Positions 44,308-64,000 of a DNA stretch of 64,000 nt are shown here, one piece after another. The notes beneath the pieces were generated by a model, which saw nothing but the letters and a program-made list of their open reading frames with translations, was not told where the DNA came from and searched no databases. How positions within the stretch are numbered: position 1 is the stretch's first letter; every line of letters starts with the position of its first letter. Position numbers and translations under genes: made by a program. The DNA comes from Tubulanus polymorphus (Eukaryota; Nemertea; Palaeonemertea; Tubulaniformes; Tubulanidae): contig NC_134026.1 in assembly GCF_964204645.1 (NCBI RefSeq), forward strand, positions 23,268,650 through 23,332,649. Reading direction: 5' to 3'.

Positions 44308-47300
44308 TCAAGTCATTAAAACTGAAGCTGCCTTATTCTCAACATAGTCCATCGCTTTTTGCTTCACCAAATTCAGACTGTCCTCATCACCATATTTCTT
44401 TTCAAACTCCATGTATTTTTTGAAGAAAAATTTCATCTTGAAGGCGGAAAAGCCAAGATTTATCACTCTTTCGAATAGGGCTCTGGAAATAAGGACGGAA
44501 TCGCAAACATATTACTACATACTAAATAAAATCTATTCTGTCACAATGTTAACTAACTTTAGGTTTAGTTCCTTACCGAACTGGTTTCATATCTCCTTGC
44601 AAAATTAACATGTCTATGTACACGGACCATAAATCTGTTCGTTTGGGGTAGTTACTGACAATATTCTCAAACATGGTGATGCCTCTTTCTGGTTCTCCGT
44701 GCTTGAATTCAAGTTTGGCGAAGTTGGATATAATCTCAACATCTAAAATACAAAATTGACAACTGTTATCTATTTACCAAGGAATCTGCTGAAAAATACT
44801 GATGTAAAAATCCCTCAAACTTACGATCTCTTTTCTCCAGACATTTCAGAGCTCTTTGCAATAACTTTCTTGCGGAATCAAATCGTTGCTGTTTGTAGTA
44901 AAATAAACCAAAGTTCACCCAAACTTTCTTCTGAGAACTGAACCGTTTCAACATTTTGTTGTACAGCAATTCAGCAGCCTGAATTAACGAGAGTGAATGA
45001 TGAATAACCGGTTCATCTCGTCAAACAATAACGCACTATTTTCATTAGAAATCAAATCATTTTCACTTTACCTCGTGTTTCTCTGAACTGATATAAATTC
45101 CAATCAATTGTTGGAAGACTTCGAAGGGCTCATTATGTTGTACAGCTCTATCAAATACAGCTTTCAAGTCTTCCTCGGAGCCATAAGTGCTTTCAACATT
45201 CATCATAGCACCCCATACATTCAATTTCTCTTGCTCTTCCCTAAAATGATTCAAATACCAATATAGTAACAGCAGTGAACCAGCACTGAATGGCGGAAAT
45301 TAAAGGAAACATATATCATTAATCAACAATGAAGTTTTAATCATCGCGATTCACTCTACAACTGTGGTTCTATAAATCATTTGACGACTCACTACTGAGA
45401 GTCTCGTAACATTAATTGGTCACACCAAAACTAGACTAGTCTAAATGAATTTTTGGCCATACACATATGACTCAATTTTAACATTTGAACATACCTGAAT
45501 GAGATGGTTTTTAGAGCACGTTCTGCCACGGCGCGTGCTTTATCGATTTCGGCTGTCTCCAAATGGAAAGCCATATATCTGATCCACACAATTGAGCTGT
45601 TTGGAGATTGGAGCACAAGTCGATCATAGTCGGCTGCTGTTTCTAGTATATTCTGACCTTTAAGTGCCAACTTCTCATTCTAAAATACAGTGAATACATC
45701 AGCAATAAATGAATTACCCAGTATACATCAATAGATCCTATCACATACTTCAGGTTAACATTACATTTTCCAGTTTAAACTCAGAATTGAACAAGGCTCT
45801 ACTGTACACACCTCAAAAATCTTTTTTTCTTCTTCAGCCTTTTCTTTTGCCTTTTCTTTCTTAGTTTTCTTTTGAATGGGCTGAAAATGTGAATTCAAGG
45901 CTTTACAAAAATCTTCAAAAAATTATACGCATCTATCAACGGAACATCCCATACCTGCACTATTTCCTCTTCATCGGATTCGCTCTCAGAGTCCTCCGAT
46001 TCATCATTTTTCTTAGTAGCGATCAGTGCCGGTGGTTTGTACAAATTATCCCAAGAAAAATCTGTTGAAAGTGTTAATCTTAACGGGCCTTTTTTATTGT
46101 GTTGTTCATTAATATCCTCTACACCACTGTCTTCATCCTCATTGACGGATAGCAATCTCTCTCTTTGCTTCTTAGGTTTTTCAGAATTATAATCTGTCTC
46201 GCTACATTGAGATATAGTACGTTTTCTTTTCCTAGATTCTTGTCTATCAGATGGTTCACATACTTCTACTTTCACACCTGTGTCTTCTTCTAACATTGAT
46301 ATCTGAATGCTCTTATCGCTTTTGTGTAAACTAAATTTTTGTACGAATGAAAAAAACATGATTGTACAATACATATTTTATCAAATGAAATCTGTTCTAA
46401 AATGTACAAAATGACTGGAAGTGTACCTGAGGGTTTTGACAGCAACACGGGCACCAAACGGTAAATCTTTACCAACGTTGCACATTTTCTCAAAGTTAAC
46501 CTGACCAAGTTGATTTTTCGATAACCTAAAAAGGTGCGTATTAGAGTTCATAAATTGAAAGATTTATTTTGCTTTTTATGAAGTGATAAACGCAATATAT
46601 TTTGTCTATGATAAGAAGTAGGGATACATACCACACTGATTTCCCATTAGGAGTTGATGCATTAATGTAGGCATCAAGTACATCCCCAACTTTGAAGTCA
46701 TTAAAGCATTTCTCATCCAGATTTTGGTGAAAAGTGGAGTTAATCCTAAAGGGATGACAAAACTTAATCAATTATCTTGTCATTGATTTAATTCTTTGAT
46801 CCTAGATTTCAGTAAAATGTTGATATGAACTTACTTTTCTTGTAGAAGTGACACTATCCATATTTTCTCTTTATCTTGGCCGAAAATAAAGCATTGAGTT
46901 AAATTCTTTTGTTTCAATCTTTTTTGACACCTTACACCACCAACTTCATCAATACTTGCAAAACCAATCATACCATTAGCCAGCAATACCGATGCACCTT
47001 TACTCGTAACTTCTGTCACTTGACAGTGAGTAACTGAGCAAGGAAGGATATCAATGCGACCTGGATAGGAGAGTTATTTAAGTGATCAACTGGTCGAAAC
47101 ATACTCATACCCAAATTCTATCACAATTAATATTGCATACCAATCATGGATAATTCTAGATGATTCGCACTTATAGTTCTAACCACGGTCGCTTTACAAA
47201 TCGTACCAATGTGAAAACTTTTTTTGGGCTGTTGCAATACCTGTAAAGAAATTCAACTTTCCAATTTGAGGAACTAGCACAAATAAAGAATATTTGAATT

Positions 47301-50300
47301 GACAATTATAGATTGAAACATTGATCTTTTAGATCAATTACAGTATTCGATCTTACCTTTAAGTCTGTTGATTGGTTGAGAAGGAATATTTTTCCAGACA
47401 CTTGTGGTGTTACTCTAACATCCATCACTTTGCCATTCTACAATAGAAGGATTCATGAGAATAATTCAATCCTAACTGTAACCTGCAAGTCTCAACATAG
47501 GTAGGTATACATTACCTCAGTAACAAAGACTTGAACTTCATCGCCTGCTTTAAACATGCCTCCAGGAGACTGTTCATAGGCAGCTAATAAACTTTTCTTT
47601 GTAATTTCCCCAGATAGTTTACTGTAAAAAATATGTAAGATTTAGTAGTAGATTATGCACAATTTGTTTTATTGAATTGTATAGCAAACTGACCTTGGCC
47701 TCAGACTACAGTCAACCATGGAAACAGATACCCCGGGATGAGTTATTGCTAACCTCCTGTAATAAGATATTAACAATGATGAAGTCCTAAATGTTTTTGA
47801 GAGATTGCAGACAACAAACACTTTAACAGAACGAAGCACTTACACTTGCGTTTGTACACATCGGAAACCAATGACAACTATTTCTATCTCTCTACCGACT
47901 GAATATTTCTTGAATGGTTTTGTTCCCTGAAATGAATTTTCACTGGAACATAAATCCTGATTACCGGTTTCAAATAGAATATATCATTTGGAACCAGCAC
48001 ACAAAACAACATACCCGTTGAGGGTTGTCATAAACCTCTGTAGCATACACTCTCCCAGGAACATCACCGATCTTTATGTTCATTTGATATGGCAGAATCT
48101 TAGTTATTCTAAATATCGATACAATACCCAGGGTTATATAAACCGTTTACAACAAATTTCTCAAAATTCCATATCTATGACTAGTTTTACTTACTTGGCT
48201 TTGTGGTGAGAGCCAATTTTTAGATCATGAGAATGATTTTCAGTCAACGGTGCATCAACTGAATAAGCGGCCAATTTCTCATAGTGTTGTATGCCAGCAA
48301 TAATTTCATCCTCAACACTGTGAAAGATTTCATTATTAAAAGGTAAATCAAATCGTGAGATATTAACACATTAAATGATACATTATGGTTTAGTCAAAGC
48401 TTTTTCACCTTTTTATCACAACTTTGTTTACTTGACCGATCTGGAATGATTTCTCTTCAAGGAGATCATTCATATGCTGCAAAGAAAAAAAAACTTCCAG
48501 TAACGGGTACATAATAATCTGTATTTAAATTAGCCTTGCAAAGGTATCTGTAACTTACTCTTTTTCCCGGGATGTAGACAAGTCTACCAACAGCATGGCC
48601 TTTCAACAACACAAGTGCAAAATCTTGCTTTATCAACTGCACTTCTGAGCTCAAAACTTGTCCTACAATGACTTTGTTGGCTTTGTTTTCTACCCGATTC
48701 TGTATACAATTCACAAGCTTCGGATCGAGAGATATTTCTAAACATTTCGATGAGAAATCGATAAACAAAACAACTGCATCCATTGTGTTGCCGACCTCAC
48801 AATCCACTCCTAACCAAACAAAGAGATTTGAGTATTATGCTCTGTATTCTTACATGGGTAACAAATTCTAAGTTAAATCAACTAACCTATCATGTGCTCA
48901 TAAATGCAAATAGCTCCAATGTTTGATTCCACTTTGCATACAGTACCAGAGACAGTTTTCTTTACAATCTTTGCTTTTACAATCTGACCAACCTGATACT
49001 TGCAGATTGATAATTTTTCCGCTGAAATAGAAGATAGCACAATCAAAACAAACAGAAAATCAATATAACAGTTTATAAGTAATCATATATCATACATAAT
49101 TCGTTTAATTATTTTTCCACAGGATTCTGCATGCATAAAAATATACCTCTAGCGAATTCAATATATTGACGTTTTTCTATCAGATAATTTCTTAACAGTT
49201 CAACAGCTATATTTGGGTCCTGGTGGAAACAATGAGACATTTTTAAGCTCAATATGCAACGTTTCTTCTCTGCATCAACCTCCATCACCTTCACAGCGAC
49301 TGATTTGCCTTCTGTAAGTAACGGTTTAAAGACCTGATCCTGGCCCCTTACATCACTAATAAACTGCAAAACAGGACAATTTTACGAACTATAGATGACT
49401 TTATCAGTCAAAAATTCCAACAGCTGTATTTCATTTAACATGGAAACAAACCTTATTAGGCACCAATCCATAATATCCACTATTGAGTTTAATGAAGCAG
49501 CCTATATCACTAGATTGTTGTACAATTCCTGGCAATATTTGTCCAACCTAAATACATGTAAAAAGATCTTCGTATAACAATTAATTCTAGAAACTACATA
49601 CCGGAATATAAACCTTAAGGCTTCAGGGACCTATTTCATACCTTGATTCGATCGAATGACTTTGGTAACACGCCATCCTTCGCTGCTTGAATCATTGATT
49701 TTTTAGTTGTGAGAATCTAGTAAAAATATGTTAAGGCGAACAATGCATGCTTTGGAATTAGATGAACAATTCCAGCACTGTTATATATGTATGAAAAGGA
49801 TACCAGATCACTGCTCTTCTGCGTATAACAAACTGCATCATCAATAACATCACCAGGTTTGTACATTGTGAAGAGTAAATCAGAAGTTGCTGCAGAATCA
49901 GTGAGATACGATTTTGGAATCTTCGCTAGAATTCCGCATGGCTTATGGAGTTTCACAATAAGACCATCATCGGTTTTTTTGATAACAGCACATTTCACTA
50001 TAGTCGTTATACACGCTTGAAACTTATCACTGATGCAAGAATCCTGAAATGGCAGTCATCATGATTTATTACTGAATCACACATTAGCTGTGTGTTCTAT
50101 TTCAAAATAACGAAGATTTACTTACTTCTGGCTTCGCTGAAGGCTTATTACTTTCTAACTGGGACACAATGATTTCATCTTCAGCACAACTACATAAGAA
50201 AGAAATGAATTAAATACACGCATTTTTCATTTTTCCATCAGATCGATGTAGGATAAAGTTTAGGCAAACAGACTGAAATGCAATGTTTCACATACCTATG

Positions 50301-53300
50301 CACTTTGACATCTAAGAACTTTCCATGGTCAAATGATAATCCACCATCCAAATCATTCATGTGCTAGAAAATATACATACCCATAAACAGAAACAAATGA
50401 CCAGCATCAACCAGAAATTTAGATAGAAAGGGCATCTCAATGATATATGTAAGAAAATCTATCAGTGTTTGACTTACCTGCTTAACAGGAAGGTAGGCAA
50501 TTATGCTTGCATCATTCACGTTTAATGACACAATGCAATATTCACTCTTGACAAGAAGCACTTCTGCCTTCAATGACTTCATATTCTATAATGATTATCT
50601 TAAAATAATAAGAAATCCATCAAAATGGCAATACACTGGGATATGATATTTGTTAGGGTACCTTCAGTGCCTTAATGCTTGTTTTCCATTTCTTGACTGA
50701 TTTCACCAGTTCAGGACAGAGAGAAACTTCTACTAGATGTGACTGAATATCAATGTCAAGCACAACTGCATCCACCTCTGATCCTTCTTCAAATTCTGTC
50801 CCTGGAAAGAAGATTAAAGAATCAAAGGCTTCAATTTATATACCTCAATAATGGAATTTTACCTTTACATTATTAAATGCACACATACCTTTTGAGTACT
50901 TGGTGGAACTAGTTCCAGTTATAACTGAATTTATGAGGCATTTTATTTTTTCACCATCAATACTATGTACTGCAGCTTTAACAATAGAGCCAGGTTTCAA
51001 TTTGCTGAACTTTGTTTTTCCTAGAGAGAAGAAAATCTTTATCAATGCAAAGCAATCAAGCATATTCCTATCATTTGCAAAGGTTTGTCAAAGATAAACT
51101 TTTCAGTTACCTTTGAAGACCGATTTTAATATGAGCTTTCGTTCTGCTAGGCAGTTTTCTAACATTTCAACTGCATCTAGTTCATTCTTCTCTTTGTCAT
51201 AGCAGTCGCTCATTTTCAGACTAAACCGAACTCTCCCAGACACCTCATCGAGTTCAATGATCTTTGGTTTTACCGACTGACAGAAACGATACACTTTCAT
51301 TGGATTGGCACAGTAATTGTCACATACATCCTGTTAAGACAGAGTTTCAAAACACTACATTTCAATTACCATTTCACCAGTTATGCAAACAATTACGTAG
51401 GTTTTACTTACTTTTGAAAGAACAAGTCCATGCAAATCATTTGGTAATGAAACAAACACACCATACGATTCACTTTTATGAATGATTCCAGAATAACAGG
51501 AACCCTCCTGTGTAAAGCAAAAAGCAAAACAGTTAATAGTGGAATATCGTAAATCATCATAAAAGCTAAATTAACCAAACACTCTGCATATGAATAACCA
51601 TCTCATAAAACTCAAATGGTCCTCTAAGGATTTTCAAATCCAGCAATAAACACAAATCTTTAAATCACTATTACCTGTAAATCTTCAAATTTTTCAGGAA
51701 TCAGGTTCTTCTCCTTGGCTTGAATCAGAGACTTCTTCAATGTCAGTGTCTTAAACAGTGTTAAAGTCAGTAAACACTGGCTGCACGTATTTGTCTATGT
51801 TTTCTGATCTCTACGATTGCTAAGGTTTTTTCTAACATAAAAGGATACAATAATATTGTGCTTATTCCAACACATAGCACCTTTGATCACATCTCCAAGC
51901 TGGTACATATTCAAAAGAGGGCGACAATTCTCCAGAGAATCGGATAAATGATGTTTTGGAATTATCGCTGGCAATCCACTTGAAATCAATCTCACACGAA
52001 GTCCTTTATCTGATTTTGTAACAATTTTACAATCGTCCAAAGAGTTCATCTCTAACATTTCTAAGGCATTATGTTCCTTTTCAGAAAACGCTGCTATATC
52101 GGCTGCCTTCAGCTTCAATCATAGATAGAAATATCAATGCATGCATGCATCACCTTTCATGATTTGCGCCTAGTTAAAAAACAGAGTAATGCTCACCCTG
52201 AATGATAATGTCACTCTTTCTTCAGGTTCTACATCAAGAACCTTACACTTTACAACTTGTCCACTATGAAATACCTGAGTTGCATCAACAAGTCCAACAG
52301 TATTCATCTCTCTTTTCAGAACAATACCCTGAAATGATACCGGCATTGAGATTCAGTGACTAGTGTACCAACAAGCCAGATACAGTTGTAACTAACACCT
52401 ATTTACCTTCATATGGTTATAAAATCCGACAAGAACATAATTCTGGAAAGGCTTCAAAATATAACCAAGCACAATATTCCCGGGCTTGAAATCATTAATC
52501 TCTTTAACAATAGGTATCTCAGATGTTACCAGCGACTTCTTGTTTGTAAGAATAGCTTTATGACCTTCAATCTTCAAGATCTAAAAAGGACAGAAATCTA
52601 ATCACTTATCTTAGAAAGACTGGGATCATTTGAAATTACTACATAAAATGCGTGTACTGATATTGGTCTTACCCGACAGGTGAGTTTTTCACCTTCAGTG
52701 AAGAATTTCTCCGGATGCTGTATGGTGGCATCTGAATAGTGCATCGGAAAGATCAATCCACTCAACCAATCTGACAGCTTTACCACCAAACGTTTAGGTT
52801 CTAGCTTTTTAATCGTGACCTAAAATAACCATATTTCACATTGAAATGAGGGGGGCTAGTTTCACATTTTATGTTACCCGCAAGTATTTATTGTCAGTTA
52901 GTTTAAAACAAAATAACTCAAACCTCAACAATGTCCCCAATATTGATATCAGCAAGACTCATATATTTCATTTCAATCACATTCCTTAAAGTAAAAGAAT
53001 TAGAAAATAATTTCAATAATAGTTTTATAGTCAAGATGGAGTATATAGTCTGGATCTTCAAACAAGTTAGTTTATTAGCTACTCACTTTTTCATGCTAAG
53101 CCTGGCTTGGTTATCGATGAAATCGAAATCAATAACACGGCATCTGGAATTAGAAATGGTTTAAAATACCAAATAGCCATATTTATGAAGAATTATGTAA
53201 ATTATGTAACAAAATAGATTTAGAAATAGACAGCCATATCCTTACTTCACTTTTTGATTGATATGAAAATCATTGAGTGGTTGTGAGTCTTCATTCACAG

Positions 53301-56300
53301 TTTCATCGCTTATCTCACGAACCTGATAATTTCAGATAAACAAACCCAAAAAAAGCGATCAATTAGTTGGTGAGATATTTAATTGGATTATGAATGGATT
53401 AGATCTAGGTAAACCCATATAGATATTCAAGACAAGGGCAGTAGATTTGAATTTGGTAAGTGAACTACATGTATATTGATCAGAATTATAAATTTGTCAC
53501 AGTATTGAGTATTGACTGGGTTGGATAACATGTGACAGATGTATAGGGATTGATGTATGACACATATGGGTTGCATGTGGGACATGCACTGGTGACTACA
53601 ACTATAGATGAGTCCAAAACAGTGTAAACTCATCACAAATGGGTCCAGATTTTCGTATTTTAACTAAATATACCAACAATTGTGCAATGAGAAATGTAAA
53701 ACACAATTATTCTGTATTTACATTCTAAAAAGTCTGACTACATCATTTCGATGACACCTATATCGACACCTTCATAATGGACTATTCCAGATGTTCAAAT
53801 GATTTTTCTATAGTACTGTAGTACAATCAAACAAACACATGTTGCTCGAGCTCAGGGAATAACGGCATATTCTATACATATAGGCATCTCGACATACATT
53901 TCGCAATAAGTGGCACCAAATAACTTTCGACTACAATAAGAATATGTAAAATTGAGGAGAACTCATAAAGCTCGGCGTATTTGAAATTTTGTAAGATGAT
54001 GGCTAATAAATATCCCGACTACACAAAACCATGGAGACATTCAGATATATCTTTTCACGTCGAAGGAAAGATCGTACACGCGAATAAGACGATATTGTCG
54101 ATGTGGTCGCCGGTATTTGAAGCGATGTTCACGAACGATTTCAAAGAGAAACACGCATCTGAGATTAAACTACCAGGAAAGGATTACAATGATATACTGG
54201 AACTATTGCGAGTCATACACCCACCAAACAAGAAAATTGATGGTAAAATCAAATTTTTTTTTCATTACATATGTTCTTGTACAGTACTTGCTAGTTGAAA
54301 AATCCCTAAAATAAAGAGTTATGTATGAAATCATCTAAATGCAATAAATATGCAGCTAAAACCAAAAATAATTGAATGTTTTATCTAAGCAGGAGATATG
54401 CAGAAATAACATAATATTGAAATCATGCATGCGCTTCTTGAGCTGGCAGCTGCAAATTTAGATGCATTAACCATGTTAGTCATCACTATTGAACTTATTG
54501 GTACAATGAAATTATGCTTTAACTGAAGAGATTTATTGATAATGATGATGGATTGATTTTTCTGTTCATAAGCCCACCCGCTATAACAGATGTTCCGTAT
54601 TATTGCCTACATGTACATGGAAACCATTTCGGTTTCACATCTCAAGACATTTTAGCTGGCAGAGCATAATCACCAAAAACAATAATGAACCAGTATTCTG
54701 TTTCAACAGTCACCACAAACAGTCAACAGTAAAATATTTAATGACAACAGATGTTTGGGTAGCTTTCAATAAATTGATGTGTTATTAGTGAACCATATTG
54801 TTGACTCAGCTGAGCCAGCAGGAAAATGTAGATTACTAACACACGTTGAATATTTGTTATCGAGCCTGAGATGACAATAATTACGTTCGCCTTCATATTG
54901 AAGACCCATAAACATAACAGTTTAAGGTTAATATTTGACAACGCGTTGTCAATTTTTCCATTTGCAAAGTTGTGAAAAAACTACAAAAACTTCAACTCAG
55001 ATATGGACACCAATGTAATGGCGAACACTAATTCACATTCTAAATCAATAACGTTATCATATGAATTGTATTTTGTGGCTACTATTATGCACATGTGAGT
55101 AAAACACAGCTGCTAATATCAAACGCTTTTTTTCAGATATCTTATATCATTTTTGAAATTAGTGAAGTAACATTCTTATTTAGCTGATTTTATGTACAGT
55201 TTATGATACATATACTTTTAGATTGAGATATGTATATTTTCAGGGAATTCTGTCTATAAGTTACTACCACTGGCGAGGGAATACCAGATGTTTGTTTTAA
55301 CGGAAAACTGTGAAGAATATTTACTAACGCTGCCACCTAGCATGGAGCACTTGATCATAGCTGAGGAATACAACCTGCCAAAACTACTAGATAAATGTAT
55401 CAGTTTTGCATCGAATGTCAAACTGTGTGACCTAGAATCACGAACAGAATTCAAACAACTCGAACAAACGACGATGATCGAGTTGCTTCGACGTAAAATA
55501 CAAACTCTTGAAACGAAACAAAAGGCACTGAAAACTATCCATGAAATCGTCAGTGGCGACCGTCCTCACTGGAGATATGACTGCCTCGATGAGAGTCGCG
55601 GTGCACACAAACAACGCTCAGATATCTCGTGCGATGCCTGTTCATATTGGATGTGCGATGAAGTCCGAAAGAAATGTCGACAAATAATGGAGAATCTAAA
55701 CTAATCATTTATAGAAATTACTTAATCATTTTTAGTATTTACATTATTTATTTATGGAGTTTCAAACTATTTTCATTTATGCGGTGTATAATCAATAGGA
55801 AACTGGCATCTCACCAGATAGCCCGATAAAAAGTCATACTATATCAAAATAACTTCCACACACAAAAATATTTGTGGTTTGTCCAAATAGCTAAGGTAAG
55901 AAACCCTTTATATATAGGATTGTAACAAACGAGTAGTACAAACTAAGAACTTGATGTAACGACGACCCACTACAGTTGTAGCATAAATTTTAGTTAACCT
56001 TATTGATATTTATCATTGATTTATTCATAATACATGGAATGGTTTTGGGTTGAAGATATAGTTTATTTGTCAAAATTTTATTCAATAAAGCTTTAAAAAA
56101 CAAACACTTCCAAGTTTTCGCAAACAAATACCAGCATTAAGCAGGACGATTTATTACTTACAGGGACAAATCCTTGGACATCTTTGCTTAGTTTTACGAG
56201 TAGTCCTTGCTTTTTTATCTTGCCGCATACTTTCACACTGTTGAAGATCTTTCCTCGAGGATAATCTAAATGCGTATCAGACGTTTGTGGATTTGAACCA

Positions 56301-58869
56301 ATCAGATGAGGAAGCGTTGTCAAAACGACAGACTTTCTTGAAGGATGAACATACAGCACGCATGCAGTCACCTAATGTAATAGATGGATGGCATATGTCA
56401 GTACATTTTGGGAAAAGAAAAAAGATTTTAGGAAGAAATCCAAAAACGTATCTAAAAAAGAAATCATTACCTTTTGGTTTTTTTCATAGGATGAAACTTC
56501 TGATGCAAGATGTATCTGATGAATACTACATTTAAGCATATCTGAATATTTCACACTTATTCCATTTTCAGCAACCTGTACATATGATAGAAAAGCCAAA
56601 TAATTTAGGACCCTCCAATGAAGATATAACCAAGAAGCGCTATAAACTAAACATGGACATCAAGTCCTTAAGGAACTTACTTATCTTTATTTGTCCCATG
56701 ACAAGTGAAAAATATTTTGATTAGGGGCCCAGGGAAACCATACCCACTTGTTGAAATGCTTGATATTCTGATATTCTAATATTCAAAGACCTTGGGCTCA
56801 GTTCTATACAATGGTATCATCTTTAACCCACTGGTTAATTCAACTGAAAATGAATTGAGTTAGCCCCAGGTTTAAGTTAATACCAGTCAATGAAACTGGG
56901 CCCTGGTGAACAAAATTATTTAAATGAATGACCTTGAACGAACTACATTCATACATTGGTGTTCATACGACGACCAGCTTGTGTCATATCAACCAATTTT
57001 CCTTATGATGATGGGCCCTAGATTTCCCTTTAAAATGAAGATTTCAAAGAAGCGTAAAAAGTACAGATTTTGGTGAAAAACAATGACCATCAGTCAGCCA
57101 TCTTGAATCTGATTGGGCCAGTTTTTGGGCTGTAGATATTTCTAGGGTAGATACATCCACTCGCCAAAATAACTGGATTCTGTCAATGAAATGAGGATGA
57201 AAAGTGAATGTAATAACCTACTGGAACTCACAGGCGGATTAAAAATAGGATACATTTCTATCATCCATTCATGTTAGTAATACATACCGACTGGACAGTT
57301 GTTTGCAAAATCATTCCAGGCAATAAACTTGAGAACGGAATGGAAGTTGGTGTTCTAGCAGCTTCAACAACTTTAGGATCGACAACGACCTGAGTTACAC
57401 GTAATCGACCATCTTGTCTGTTCAGATCATCTTTGACCAGGCAGTTCAGGTATTCTCCAATAACCAAACCTTTTTCTGTACAATAATAAAACTTATTTAC
57501 AAAAAGCCGAGACAAATCTAGCACAAAATTAACCCATCCGAAGGGACCTACGATTTTTTTTGTTTTTAACATATTTCTCTGCAGCGTTTGTAGTTACAAA
57601 TGCCTGAATGCCCTTAATGCCAAGATCTACTATGTATCCATGATCCTCGATGCTCGATACAAAGCCACCGATTACCTGAAACAAAAAATTATTTTTTCAG
57701 GAGAAAATTTCATAAAACTGAAAACGAACTTGATTTCAGTCACTGTCATCCAAACGCATGAATAATGTGCCCCAGTGGCCCGAAAAAATGGCTAGGGCTG
57801 ACATCATAACCATGAAAATGAATTGTACCAAGATTATGCAACTGGAGTTAAGTTTTCAAACTCAATTATTACGAGGTAGGTTTTAGCTCCCAAAATGATG
57901 CAAAATTGTGTTAACAGTAACAAGCAACTAACCAAGAGAGCTAGTGACAAAATGGACTCTTAAACGAGTCACTGATAAATATTTGCTTTACCATTCCTTT
58001 CATTAGATCCGCAGCCGCTATCTGGTGGTTGACCTCTTTTGGATTCAGAGTAAGCTCAAACCATCGTTTGTTCTTCTTTTCTGTAATATCTTTAACCTTA
58101 CATCTCACAACTGTGCCTATTTCAAATAAATCTTGTAAACCACACACGTCCTAGGAAAAAGAATACAATAACATTGAGTTGGTTCAGAATTGATTTGTCG
58201 TCCAAAACATGTTCTACTGGGTTAGAGAACCAGTCTCGTTTTAGTAAGGAATAACATTTCAAAAACCATTTTGGCTACAATCTTAGGCCAATTCAATGAG
58301 TTTGTCTTTACACTAGGCCCAACTGTACGAAAATCAGATGCTATCTGTATAGTTCTCACCTGTTTGTCGGAATCATTTTGTGTCAATGACTGAAGGTTTT
58401 CCGTATACACATCACAAATATCAGTAATAGCAACACATCCGGTAACATTGTTAGATAAGCTCACGATCAGCTTCAAATCCTGGACGTCTTTCACCCGACC
58501 CAACAGTAACATATTCTGAGTGACAGCTGGTGAAACGAGCCGTTCTATAACTACGTGTTTGAACTCATCTTGTTCGTCATCTTGTTCTTCTAGTTTCGCC
58601 TTTTTACTTTTCTTGTCGTCTCTTTTGTTCAATTTTCTTTTCTTCGCAACTTTTTTATCAGATTCCTAAAATTAATTAATAAACTCTATTTCACATTGTT
58701 ATCAAGTTGAAGGAGGCTAGTATAGATTTATTTGATTAAAACTTACAGAAGTTTGATGAGCTTTGAATAAATCAGGTATATGCTTTTTTGTCGAAACTGT
58801 TGCATTCTCTTTTTCTCTTTTCAAAGATTTCTTCCCACCTCTTGGGAAATCTTCGATTATCTTAGACAT
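44308..58869 (-). CDS. PDCD11: RRP5/PDCD11 ribosome biogenesis protein, with duplicated S1 block
   Basis: Nucleolar pre-rRNA processing factor of the small-subunit processome, needed for cleavages that release 18S rRNA and for large-subunit ITS1 processing. Forty-six coding exons from ATG 58869 to stop 44308, all in phase, give 2164 residues; the human protein has about 1870. After a basic N-terminus ([16 protein letters not shown]) come many S1 RNA-binding repeats with linkers such as [13 protein letters not shown] and FSLKMSDC. An acidic/basic linker follows (46330-45955, [27 protein letters not shown]). Then comes a C-terminal HAT/TPR superhelix ([62 protein letters not shown]). First exons: 58747-58869, 58360-58665, 57992-58150, 57552-57675. 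Last: 44825-44978, 44577-44742, 44308-44482. The exons at 50126-52112 and 48409-50043 are paralogous blocks, which explains the extra length. A BTB gene sits in the intron 53323-56161. Confidence 0.96.
48409..50043 (-). repeat. RRP5 duplicated exon block, copy B
   Basis: Coding exons of 240, 75, 96, 217, 135, 251 and 68 nt. The 251-nt exon corresponds to the 140+108 nt pair of copy A, so one intron differs. Marker phrases: [65 protein letters not shown] and HMNDL. Confidence 0.88.
50126..52112 (-). repeat. RRP5 duplicated exon block, copy A
   Basis: Coding exons of 264, 75, 96, 220, 132, 140, 108, 68 and 64 nt. Marker phrases: [65 protein letters not shown] and HMNDL. Each has a counterpart at the same place in copy B. 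Confidence 0.88.
53996..55704 (+). CDS. BTB/POZ domain protein nested in an RRP5 intron
   Basis: Two-exon gene (53996-54242 and 55244-55704, phase 1 junction, GGTAAAAT donor and TTTTCAG acceptor), 235 residues. Residues 18-120 form a BTB/POZ fold: [31 protein letters not shown] and [18 protein letters not shown], then [23 protein letters not shown] domains dimerise and often serve as Cul3 substrate adaptors. After it come a short helical region with coiled-coil character ([18 protein letters not shown]) and a Cys-rich C-terminus ([25 protein letters not shown]) that may bind metal; the last point is inference. No Kelch or MATH domain is present. An earlier TTG codon is in frame, but ATG-ATG at 53996 is the natural start. 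The gene lies wholly in the 2.8-kb RRP5 intron on the opposite strand. Confidence 0.88.
56084..56089 (+). other. Polyadenylation signal AATAAA for the BTB gene
   Basis: Hexamer 380 bp after the BTB stop codon, only 73 bp short of the next RRP5 exon (56162-56371) on the other strand. The transcripts therefore nearly touch or overlap. Confidence 0.55.
56794..56903. mobile_element. Fold-back MITE-like element in an RRP5 intron
   Basis: About 110 bp. The left half (GGGCTCAGTTCTATACAATG, then GTATCATCTTTAACCCACTGG) is an imperfect reverse complement of the right half (CCAGGTTTAAGTTAATACC, then AGTCAATGAAACTGGGCCC). The whole unit can form one hairpin. Non-coding. Confidence 0.65.
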
Positions 58870-59345: not shown

Positions 59346-60478
59346 TGCCATTGTGAAAATATCTGATCGTAACTAAACCAGACGGTCACCGACAAACAAT
59401 AGTGTAAAAATTATCAACTAAACTTAACTGAACCAAGTTTAGCACAGAGCAGTTAATCATGCAATACGCCACTGCAGCGAATGTTTTTGACGGATATGAT
59501 GGATGATGATTGGTGCGAATAATAGCGTCAACTAAATTTTCGGTAAATAGTATGACCAACTAACAACAGTCAACCAGAGCAAAAACTATCCTCTAATTTT
59601 CCCCATTCGAAAATTATATGCCTTTGAGAAATGAATTATCTAAATCATGTATATGTCAGCGCGTTACCTTGTTTTACGGAAGGGTTACTGCAAATATAAA
59701 CAGATTACCGACAGCATAAAAACACGTGCGTATTCGGCATTTAGGACAGTATAGTGCTGCCACCTTCGTTCGAAGACATTCGATTGCTAGCGAGTGAGTG
59801 AGCAGAGTAAGCAGGGTTCGAACCCAGTTTGGATGATTGTTAATTGATTCCATGGTAACGTTTAAAGATGGCGACCTCCTTGTAACTTTTGTTGGCCCTA
59901 ACTTAAAAATTCCAACACATGACGACCAATTTCCATCGTTGAACTTACCGATCAATATTCTAAACGAACCCAAATCATTGAAAGGTAGCTGTTGTTCTTT
60001 TAAAAAACCTGCAATTGAATTGAAGTTAACATAGGCCTAGACCAACAAGCTGAAAGCTGAATTAAATTGAATTGTAAATAAATTTTATTAATTGTTGGTT
60101 TGGTATTGGATGTTTTTCTTCATCCGCTCTTTTAAATTAAGACTTTTGAATTTAGTCTTTTTAGTTTGATATCTGTTTGTAGGGCCTAAGTATTTTGCTT
60201 TCCATGAAATAGAATTGAACTTGAAACTTGACACTTTTCCCGCTGCTGGCTGGCCTTTTTTATGTGTGTCCTGATGACTGGCTGACCAGCTGTCCTCTGC
60301 GGGAGACAGACCGGCTGGTAGGATAAATATTGATTCAGTTGTGGGGGTAGTTGAGGCAATGACTGCTCCAAGGGTTAGGCATACAAATTTTATGTAGTAA
60401 CGCATAGGCCTGTATGACCTACTAACTTCCAGACTGGGTAAAATTAGGACTCAATCCCTTTCTTTCAGAGTTCTCAAC
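59346..60478. other. Intergenic region upstream of ENO4
   Basis: Separates the divergent RRP5 and ENO4 start codons and probably holds the ENO4 promoter. An acceptor-like TTTCTTTCAG at 60459-60468 just before the ENO4 ATG suggests an untranslated upstream exon. No gene or further repeat was recognised. Confidence 0.5.
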
Positions 60479-63400
60479 ATGGATTCATTGAGAAAGATAC
60501 AAGATCCGAAAGAGCTTTTCATTCTGAAACAGAAAGCAGCAAAATATTACCAAGAAAATGCTGTACCATCAAAAATGGAAGAGATCCTAAATACCATGTT
60601 TTTTGATGACCCAGATGATGTGTTTGGCCATTTGGTAGGTGATGAATCTAATAAGCGTAGCTGGTGAATATAGTCAAACAAAGCTGACTAATAGGGCTTA
60701 TATTTATTCTATCTATTTTCAGACTAATTATTTTGAGAAATTTGCTAAGCCAGCTGTGATATCAAAAATCAGGGCAAGAGAAGTATTTGATAGTAGAGGA
60801 CAACCAGCTATAGAAACAGACTTATTTTGTACAATAAAGAATAATGAAAAGGTACACACAGGGATTTGCATGTATAGACTACCGGGTAGGCCTGAAGATT
60901 GACTGATATTTGTAATTAAGTAAAATATTTATTGCAGTTAGTCAACCGGAATATTGTTGGAAATGAATGCTATTTGATGGATAATGTCCCTGCAACTGAG
61001 AAAGATTCGGATGATTCAGCAAGATATTCATCCATCGTGGCTGCTTTGCAACTTTTGATGGGAGATGTTCAAGACAAAGTGAAAGGCTTAAGTCCACTTA
61101 ATCAAGATGAAATAGATGGAATTGCTTTGTAAGAAATACTTGATTAGATCTTGTTGTGAATAATAATTTGTATTTCTTTTTGATTTTGAAACTTTCCCAA
61201 TTCTAGGAATGTAATAGAAGAATTACGTATAAAGGACCAAGAGGAGAAAGCAGCAGAGAATGCTGAGGTAGCACAAGAAAGTCAGTCAGCAGTACCACCA
61301 GCTGCATCTCCAAGTGCTGGCAAAAAATCAGCTAAGTATGTGTTATTTTACGTCCATTGACAAGGATAGCTTTTCTTCTTATTTCTAATTCCTTTCAATA
61401 GGATAAAGCAGCATTTTGTCCTCTTTATTTGTAATGTTATAGGGTCCAAAAGAGGTGAGAATTTAAATGTTACAGCATATTTGTTTACAACGCATGTGCA
61501 TTTTAGTATCAAGGTTTGGGATTTACTAAGGATATGGTACCTATATTACACTTAAGTTATTTTTACATAGCTATGAAAATAACACATAGATAATCTACTA
61601 TTACATAAAAACTAAATGGCTCGTAATATGTGCATAATTTAATCGTAACCATTATTCCATTGCAGATATGAAATTCTAAATTGTTCATAGACGTTCATGG
61701 TTCAGGCAGATGTAAGGTATATTATCGTACATTGCTCTGATTTTCTTATGATGTTTTTTTAGGGGAAAGAAAGGTCCTCCAGTTGTGATAATCCCTGATG
61801 AGCCAAGAGAAAAGTTGTTTCCCGGATGTACTGCGGTGTGCGCCATTTCTCAGGCGGTTTGCAATGCTGCTGCCATTGTCAGTGATATTCCACTTTACCA
61901 GCACATATATAACCTCAAGTTCAAAGAAACGGTTAGCATTATTTTACATGGCAGGTACAATGTATACTCCCTAGTGTCTAATTTGGACCTTTTTCATTAT
62001 CATTCTTTTATTTGTAGCTAGCTGAATCAATAAAGCTCCCTTTACCAATGGTGACAATCATGCAAAGTGGTAAGGCTGCACCGGGCAAACAGAACTGTGT
62101 GAAAGAGTTTATGGTTATACCCAAACCAGATATGCCAGTTAAAGAGGTAATGTTTGAAAATTTTCAATCCTTTTAAACAGATTCCGTGGTATACTTGAAT
62201 CATGTCAATGTCTTTGTATTTCAGAGTATCAAAAATATATCAAATATCTATCAAACAGTTCTGAAAACTTTATATACGAAACTGGGGGTAAGTTTCACAG
62301 CTGAAAATCTTGCACTAAAGTCTTGCAAAGTGACTAATACATTCTCAGAAAATAGTTTGGCAAAATCCATACATGTGTGTAAATGCACTGCGCAAGCCCC
62401 AAACCATAATTGTACAATCTACTTATATCCTGATTTTTTGATAAAAGCATGAAAACAGTGGCTATAGAAAACAACATCAAACCATAATTTCACAGGTGAA
62501 CATTGTTGTATGTGTATAGGTGTCTGATGGTGACTTGCACGTTCTTTAAACTGTATCATGATTTTATACTTTCCATCTGCTTTCCATATTTTGTATGAAT
62601 TATGCTTTGTGTGTATTATGGTTTGTCATCAAGCCAAGGCTTGTTTACCTTGATGCTGTGTTTTTGACAAGCCGTATGTACGTACTCATACATGTTGATA
62701 CCATTAACTGCCACTCACATTTTTGTGTCTTTTTTGCATTTTAGGTCACCATAAAGAATGTTTCAGAATCAGGGGCTATTTGTCCACAGTTCGACCGACC
62801 AGAACAAGGTCTAGATGCAATACAGGAAGCTATCACCACTCTTGGTTTCACCCCAGGTGAAGACTTTCACATTGCAATCAATGCGGCAGGACACGAAATG
62901 TTTGATAGTGTAAGTACCAGTATTCTAATACATAAGAAGTAATAATTCTGTAAATCAATATACATTGCAATAAGGGTTTTAATCAGATTTTTTATAATCT
63001 ACTGCAGGAAAAGGGCAAATATGAAGTGGTGACTGGTATGCAAAAATTACCGGATGATATGCCCGACTTCTGGGCAGAATTACTGGGTCGGTATCAATCA
63101 ATTATAGCATTGATAGATCCTATTAGAAAGGAGGTAAGTAACAGACATTTTTAACCAGTTCATGCACACTTTGGTTTGACCCTCCGGTATGTTGTATATT
63201 TGAAATTTACTTTATTCCAGGATAAGGTGCAATGGATGGCAATTTGTGAGAGATTGTCTGAGCGCTGTTACATCATCAGTGATAACAAATGTCCTCGACC
63301 CGGATTATTGAAGGATAATGAACCTGTTGATGATTTCAAAACGAGCGCAGTTGTCATGAAAATGGAACAAATAACCTCTGTGTCTGATATCATCAATGCA

Positions 63401-63927
63401 TCAAAAACAATGGAATGTAAGTAATTCTTACAGCTTTCAGTTCACTTACGTCCATAAATTTAAACGTTTTCGAATTTTCATAATTGAAGGACTACTTAAT
63501 TTTTTCAGTTGCTTTCTCTTCTTGTATTTAAATGATTTAGTTTATTTCAGATAAAGAAAATCAGGTGATCATTTCCAGTAGTGTAGGGGATTCCAGTGAT
63601 TCATTCATTACAGATTTAGTAAGTTCTTGTAAAATCAATTGATATTCCTCATTTACATTGAATACTTTCAATGATAATATATGAACTCCTTTGACGTTTC
63701 AGGCAGTTGGCATACAAAGTAGATTTCTGAAAACTGGATCACCGTGTCGTGGAGAGCGCGTTGCCAAGTTGAATCGTTTACTACAAATTGGAGAACAATT
63801 AGAGGAACAAAACAAATTAGTGAAATGGGATGAGCACATTTTCCCAAAACTATCTCTTCCTCCTCCTCCAGAGACTCCCGAAGGTGAAGCAGATGCGAAC
63901 GCTGAACAAGATGCCAAGAAAAAATAG
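60479..63927 (+). CDS. ENO4: Enolase 4-like protein
   Basis: Divergent enolase family member. The mammalian ENO4 is sperm-specific and needed for flagellar structure and motility. Twelve coding exons: 60479-60634, 60723-60851, 60938-61128, 61207-61335, 61763-61931, 62018-62146, 62225-62287, 62745-62909, 63008-63133, 63221-63416, 63551-63618 and 63703-63927. They total 581 residues, all in phase. The first exon (about 52 residues, QDPKELFILKQKAAKYYQEN) is an ENO4-type N-terminal extension. Enolase landmarks: REVFDSRGQPAIETDL, KEFMVIPKP, AVVMKMEQITSVSDI (Lys of the active site kept), FLKTGSPCRGER (second Lys kept). The usual SGAS loop is absent, replaced by a linker with a charged low-complexity insert (EEKAAENAEVAQES). 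Two Mg2+ ligand positions differ: AINAAGHEMF for the Asp site and ALIDP where IEDP is usual. The C-terminus is acidic and then basic. Confidence 0.93.
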
Positions 63928-64000
63928 CTCATCTTTGGTGATTTAAAGAACTTTCTGTTTTTTTCATCAAAGTTTGATGTATGTGATGTCAGTGATGCGT

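Follow-up and report, generated by a model that had tools for sequence, protein, structure and literature searches.

A probable tandem internal duplication of a four-domain S1 block in an RRP5-like gene of the nemertean Tubulanus polymorphus

Are two adjacent, matching runs of exons in a gene for a repeat-built protein copies of one ancestral segment, and if so, when did the second arise? The question is raised by an RRP5/PDCD11-like gene in a 64,000-nucleotide stretch of the genome of Tubulanus polymorphus (NCBI RefSeq assembly GCF_964204645.1, contig NC_134026.1, positions 23,268,650 to 23,332,649; hereafter the window, with positions counted from its first letter). Our analysis points, with a probability that we put at about 0.83, to a tandem internal duplication by which a block of four S1-type domains was copied within RRP5, in one step and in frame, in an ancestor of this animal after the split from vertebrates. 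RRP5, without which yeast cannot live, connects the assembly pathways of the 40S and 60S subunits (PMC6168700, excerpt).

The gene was rebuilt from the raw sequence (Table 1). In the re-derived model 45 of 45 introns are GT-AG, and the predicted protein has the same length that an initial annotation of the window had given (2164 residues). The closest PDB matches of this protein are the Rrp5 chains of Chaetomium and yeast. In Pfam, residues 1-1010 matched S1_RRP5 (133.6 bits), OB_RRP5_4th (52.4 bits), and OB_RRP5 (37.2 bits), all exceeding the cut-off, and HAT/TPR families were found at the C-terminal end, where residues 1835-2156 matched the C-terminal domain of yeast Rrp5 with 262.6 bits. 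On either side of the block, the domain order is collinear with that of fungal Rrp5 and of the human RRP5 sequence used here. The S1-type domains were delimited by eye with degenerate domains included, which gave 18, and the predicted product is probably a protein of about 18 S1-type domains followed by a C-terminal HAT/TPR domain.

The two runs of exons, designated block A and block B, pair closely in size: exons 14-22 of block A measure 264, 75, 96, 220, 132, 140, 108, 68, and 64 nucleotides, and exons 23-30 of block B measure 240, 75, 96, 217, 135, 251, 68, and 123 nucleotides. The initial annotation had proposed a duplicated eight-exon block at 48195..52112, with exons paired by size and a one-intron difference between the copies. 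Its coordinates are exact, its size pairs were all reproduced on re-derivation from the sequence, and the intron difference (140 and 108 nucleotides in block A vs 251 in block B) was confirmed; the figure of eight exons holds for block B, but block A has nine. Aligned by BLASTP, the two protein segments are identical at 123 of 356 columns (35%; E 3e-54), and their Smith-Waterman score of 444 compares with a mean of 42.4 (standard deviation 6.6, maximum 71) over 500 shuffles. When all domains were compared pairwise, with borders set by eye, the pairs A1-B1, A2-B2, A3-B3, and A4-B4 reached z-scores of 26.5, 16.4, 14.9, and 16.8, respectively, and the remaining 12 pairs between the blocks, which are out of order, stayed at or below 3.7.

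Both blocks score above the Pfam cut-off of 22 for the S1 profile (49.4 bits for block A and 44.7 bits for block B); for the OB_RRP5 profile, with a cut-off of 27, block A lies above it (32.3) and block B below it (18.7). Within block B, the first domain is the only one that has no Pfam match. A structure model of its exon 23 alone, built from a two-sequence alignment with exon 14 and lacking the last strand, contains strands at 15-24, 27-32, and 39-43, a helix at 51-60, and a strand at 66-71, with a predicted local distance difference test (pLDDT) score of 70; this strand-strand-strand-helix-strand order is that of the OB fold. Among the best PDB matches to the model were S1 chains and also non-S1 chains, none with an E value up to 0.001. 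A search of the 267.8 Mb assembly with a 137-residue stretch of block B returned four matches, all within the RRP5 gene (three in block B and one in block A); the search scored the best candidates only, and a single copy is not provable from it.

The introns repeat the pattern of the domains. Each of the seven introns of block B has a counterpart of the same phase in block A that is no more than one alignment column away, six of them in the very same column, and the best of 100,000 random intron placements gave four matches of seven, even with a tolerance of 3 columns. Exon 22 corresponds to the first part of exon 30 only, and ends in phase 0 vs phase 2 in exon 30. Both copies are open: no in-frame stop occurs in the 389 codons of block A or the 401 codons of block B, and each other frame contains 35-38 stops. 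As sets, the donor and acceptor sites of the blocks score higher than decoy GT/AG sites (p 2e-5 to 1.1e-4) and show no difference from the other sites of the gene (p 0.13 to 0.45).

What sets this gene apart from the RRP5 sequences compared with it is the second block. The human RRP5/PDCD11 sequence and domain number used here are provisional, with a length taken to be 1871 residues; a 105-residue piece of this sequence, in a region outside the block, agreed with PDB 1wi5 in all 102 of the 102 residues that could be aligned. The segment before the blocks, block A, block B, and the segment after them aligned to the provisional human piece at 1-334, 346-684, 358-707, and 754-1122, respectively. 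By this alignment the human protein has a single block between continuous flanks, and both copies align best to that one segment, as the initial annotation had supposed. On both sides of the block, the domains of the provisional human sequence follow the order seen in the Tubulanus protein; the human protein has one block and about 14 S1-type domains as against two blocks and about 18 by the same count. A lineage in which four of about 14 S1-type domains were doubled would be an experiment of nature, informative as to which of the domains are important and whether they bind RNA or proteins. The initial annotation had also put the excess over the human protein at about one block; the Tubulanus protein is indeed longer, but by about 290 residues relative to these 1871, which is below the 389 of one block.

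Fungal Rrp5 is more compact still. In phmmer searches, the match to Chaetomium Rrp5 (6rxy_Cz) jumped from residue 800 of the query (residue 882 of the chain) to residue 1398 (913), and that to yeast Rrp5 (PDB 5wlc_NJ) from residue 814 (872) to residue 1400 (889); in the yeast chain a profile-search match continued from 872 to 910, which we counted as linker plus the domain after the block. The domains before the blocks, the first two block domains, the domain after the blocks, and the C-terminal HAT/TPR domains of both fungal proteins align with Tubulanus RRP5, and only 17 residues in yeast and 31 in Chaetomium separate the second block domain from the domain that follows the block. With gaps this short, neither of the two fungal proteins can accommodate a second block or even block domains 3 and 4. 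Descriptions of the yeast protein give it 12 S1 domains (PMC6168700 and PMC3991325, excerpts), a count that by our alignment probably omits one degenerate domain included in ours.

When did the second block arise? In a tree of five sequences, A and B grouped as sisters with a bootstrap of 92 on the two domains shared by all and 98 on the full block, and among 355 compared columns 66 are common to A and B only, 30 to A and human only, and 48 to B and human only. Block A has changed faster than block B (48 vs 30 human-only columns; chi-square 4.15), and the human block shares 31% identity with B and 25-26% with A. Identity between the blocks, at 36%, is close to that of the two flanks with the human sequence (34% and 28%), from which it follows that the duplication is old. 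The sequences thus suggest an event that was probably later than the split from vertebrates, yet old. Both the tandem internal duplication and the age claimed for it in the initial annotation fit these data, the former through the collinear domains and the places and phases of the introns and the latter through the 35% identity of the copies.

Several observations weigh against such a dating and against two blocks working as such. The tree holds only five sequences, one of them the provisional human one. On the two-domain alignment, the approximately unbiased (AU) test leaves both alternative topologies standing (p 0.10 and 0.086); on the full block it rejects both narrowly (0.048 and 0.048), and the Kishino-Hasegawa and Shimodaira-Hasegawa tests do not (0.06). 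Gene conversion, moreover, could make the copies appear younger than they are. These points leave room for a two-block state that was ancestral to animals or bilaterians, with one block lost in the vertebrate line and both kept here. The large divergence between A and B (35% identity) would suit such an origin, as would the failure of the AU test on two domains to reject a grouping of A or B with the human block; the joint placement of A and B with both alignments and the preponderance of columns that they alone share speak against it, and we regard it as unlikely. A few single splice sites are also weak, namely donors 14 (-0.6), 19 (0.9), and 23 (1.4) and acceptor 14 (0.2), where the other donors and acceptors of the gene average 6.8 and 8.9, respectively. 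The matrix used is unsuited to U12-type donors, such as 14 and 23; the low scores of donor 19 and acceptor 14 reflect plain weakness. In addition, the joins 13-23 (skipping block A) and 21-30 and 21-31 (skipping most of block B) preserve the frame and would yield one-block proteins, and most of the classical RNA-contact residues of S1 are lacking in both blocks.

The frame-preserving joins are what would be expected if the blocks were alternative exon sets, each mRNA carrying one of them and the protein keeping its one-block form. Eight to ten exons would then have to be skipped jointly, and the splice sites of both blocks, taken as sets, do not differ from those of the rest of the gene; equal phases at equivalent places follow from the duplication itself and lend no support to such usage, which we consider decidedly improbable. 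There is next to no chance that the likeness of the blocks is either that of S1 repeats in general or an artefact of assembly. RRP5 is built of S1 repeats, some of which do resemble each other beyond the block pairs (A2-D4, z 12.7; A2-D6, z 10.5; A3-D3, z 7.8), and this is ordinary S1 likeness. The four paired domains, in contrast, score 15-27 in order, and seven of seven introns agree in place and phase. Domain order and intron places thus rule out mere S1 likeness, and an assembly duplication is ruled out by the 35% identity of the blocks. Duplication of a whole block is likewise favoured over independent growth of S1 repeats because the paired domains score high in order and the others low.

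Under the duplication that we favour, an ancestor would have copied, within RRP5, the segment for four S1-type (OB-fold) domains that follows the sixth domain and precedes the last four, and both copies would have been retained in frame, as exons 14-22 and exons 23-30. The phases suggest a junction at which the middle of an exon-30-like exon was linked to the intron preceding the block, with exon 22 gaining a new phase-0 donor. Both blocks would be included in one mRNA, and each copy would have kept a first intron of U12-type appearance.

Among the 45 introns, just these two, 14 and 23, match TATCCTT at 7/7 positions; no other exceeds 5/7. They open with ten identical bases, even though protein identity between the blocks is just 35%. 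The U12 consensus is given as RTATCCTTT and UCCUUAACU (PMC2846911, excerpt). Besides the match at their 5' ends, introns 14 and 23 each carry, close to the 3' end, a candidate branch site resembling TCCTTAAC, which intron 14 matches at 6/8 positions and intron 23 at 7/8. Because some other introns likewise reach 6/8, the U12 call rests on the 5' site. All other RRP5 introns carry ordinary signals. Each block thus appears, from its sequence, to have retained its own copy of a single minor-class intron. In 21 of 21 genomes tested, U12 introns are reported to be clustered within the same genes, for which several explanations have been proposed (PMC7367187, excerpt); the word 'duplication' does not occur in the main text of that paper as available. 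The paired introns bear on the open question of why U12 introns cluster in this way, and internal duplication, as in RRP5, is one simple route to such clustering within genes.

What might a second block do? We took the RNA-contact residues of the PNPase S1 domain to be F, F, H, D, and R. At the five corresponding positions A2 has Y, F, L, D, and R (three kept, plus Y for F) and B2 has I, F, P, D, and I (two kept), none of the other six block domains keeps more than one of the five, and none of the ten domains elsewhere in the protein more than two. Since the absence of contact residues is general in this protein, it does not single out the blocks, and this comparison of residues is neither strong support for RNA binding nor an exclusion of it. 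The larger rRNA-binding surface envisaged in the initial annotation is not shown, the classical contact residues being mostly missing in both blocks. Most likely, we infer, the extra block lengthens an arm used for docking of proteins or for spacing, and contact with RNA would be confined mainly to A2 and B2.

In yeast, the N-terminal part of Rrp5 (S1 1-9) acts in A3 cleavage and binds the internal transcribed spacer 1 (ITS1) 3' of A3, and the C-terminal part acts at A0-A2 (PMC3991325 and PMC6168700, excerpts). Rok1 binding is reported to depend in part on a central S1 domain, named there as the sixth, and 40S binding in part on the fifth; the number of the Rok1-contacting domain is ambiguous, being the sixth in the text, where construct names could mean the seventh (PMC4900678, excerpt). 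Counting back from S1 10-12 at residue 1083 (PMC6168700, excerpt) through the profile-search matches, the sixth and seventh yeast domains would be block domains 1 and 2, and other counts would place the sixth directly before the block. By alignment, the duplicated block lies in the central part, at or beside the Rok1-contacting S1 domain, the exact yeast number of its first domains being uncertain, and the extra block lengthens the portion whose yeast counterpart works in A3 cleavage and 60S assembly.

Variation in S1 number is not in itself unusual. According to the text of one survey, Rrp5 has 1 to 14 S1 domains, and the highest entry of the table is 15, in 2 of 3263 sequences (PMC11641769, excerpt); the 18 of Tubulanus exceed these figures, although ours is a by-eye count that includes degenerate domains and is not strictly comparable. 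Bacterial ribosomal protein S1 has one to six repeats, depending on lineage (PMC6566611, excerpt). It, too, consists of tandem repeats of varying number, but it is a different protein in which single domains are repeated and no multi-domain exon block is involved. No report of such a duplication in RRP5 was recognised in the mostly open-access literature searched, and this is weak evidence of novelty. Among IMG/VR contigs, searched for RRP5 relatives with the C-terminal domain, four stretches fit a pattern and none was confirmed. A wider picture, speculative and rather unlikely to hold as a whole, would have an entire animal clade with an RRP5 of about 18 S1 domains, in which the second block has become an independent arm for docking (such as an additional contact for Rok1/DDX52 or ITS1), block A evolved faster after release from its old role, the gene depends twice on the minor spliceosome, and U12 introns were gained in a clear case of internal duplication.

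Table 1 Features of the RRP5-like gene and its neighbours, in window positions.
Feature	Position	Strand	Description
RRP5/PDCD11-like gene	44308..58869	-	46 coding exons, 2164 residues predicted; rebuilt from raw sequence
Block A	50126..52112	-	exons 14-22, residues 622-1010; four S1-type domains, A1-A4
Block B	48195..50043	-	exons 23-30, residues 1011-1412; four S1-type domains, B1-B4, plus linker to next S1 domain
Intron 14, predicted U12-type	51750..51848	-	starts GTATCCTTTT; ACTTTAAC 12 nucleotides from 3' end
Intron 23, predicted U12-type	49717..49803	-	block B paralogue of intron 14; starts GTATCCTTTT; GCCTTAAC 15 nucleotides from 3' end
Intron 19	50586..50661	-	in block A only; exons 19+20 (140+108) correspond to single exon 28 (251); donor score low
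Exon 22	50126..50189	-	shortened counterpart of exon 30; probable duplication junction, by inference
RRP5 intron 7	56161..53323	-	2839 nucleotides, longest of the gene
BTB/POZ-domain gene	53969-54298 and 55222-55704	+	inside RRP5 intron 7, on the opposite strand
Enolase-like gene	~60400-63930	+	upstream of RRP5, opposite direction

Two further genes accompany RRP5 in the window. The first piece of the BTB/POZ-domain gene matched BTB in Pfam with 56.6 bits, and in the second piece BTB and BACK were under the cut-off. In the enolase-like gene, two exons match Enolase_N, both under the Pfam cut-off. A search for mitochondrial COX1, meant to place the animal, gave no match. Elsewhere in the assembly, a let-7 microRNA gene, a hint of a bilaterian, was found at C6:8194369-8194445 with 51.1 bits, slightly under the Rfam cut-off of 53.5; compared with the mature let-7 sequence, the stretch reads as a let-7 hairpin.

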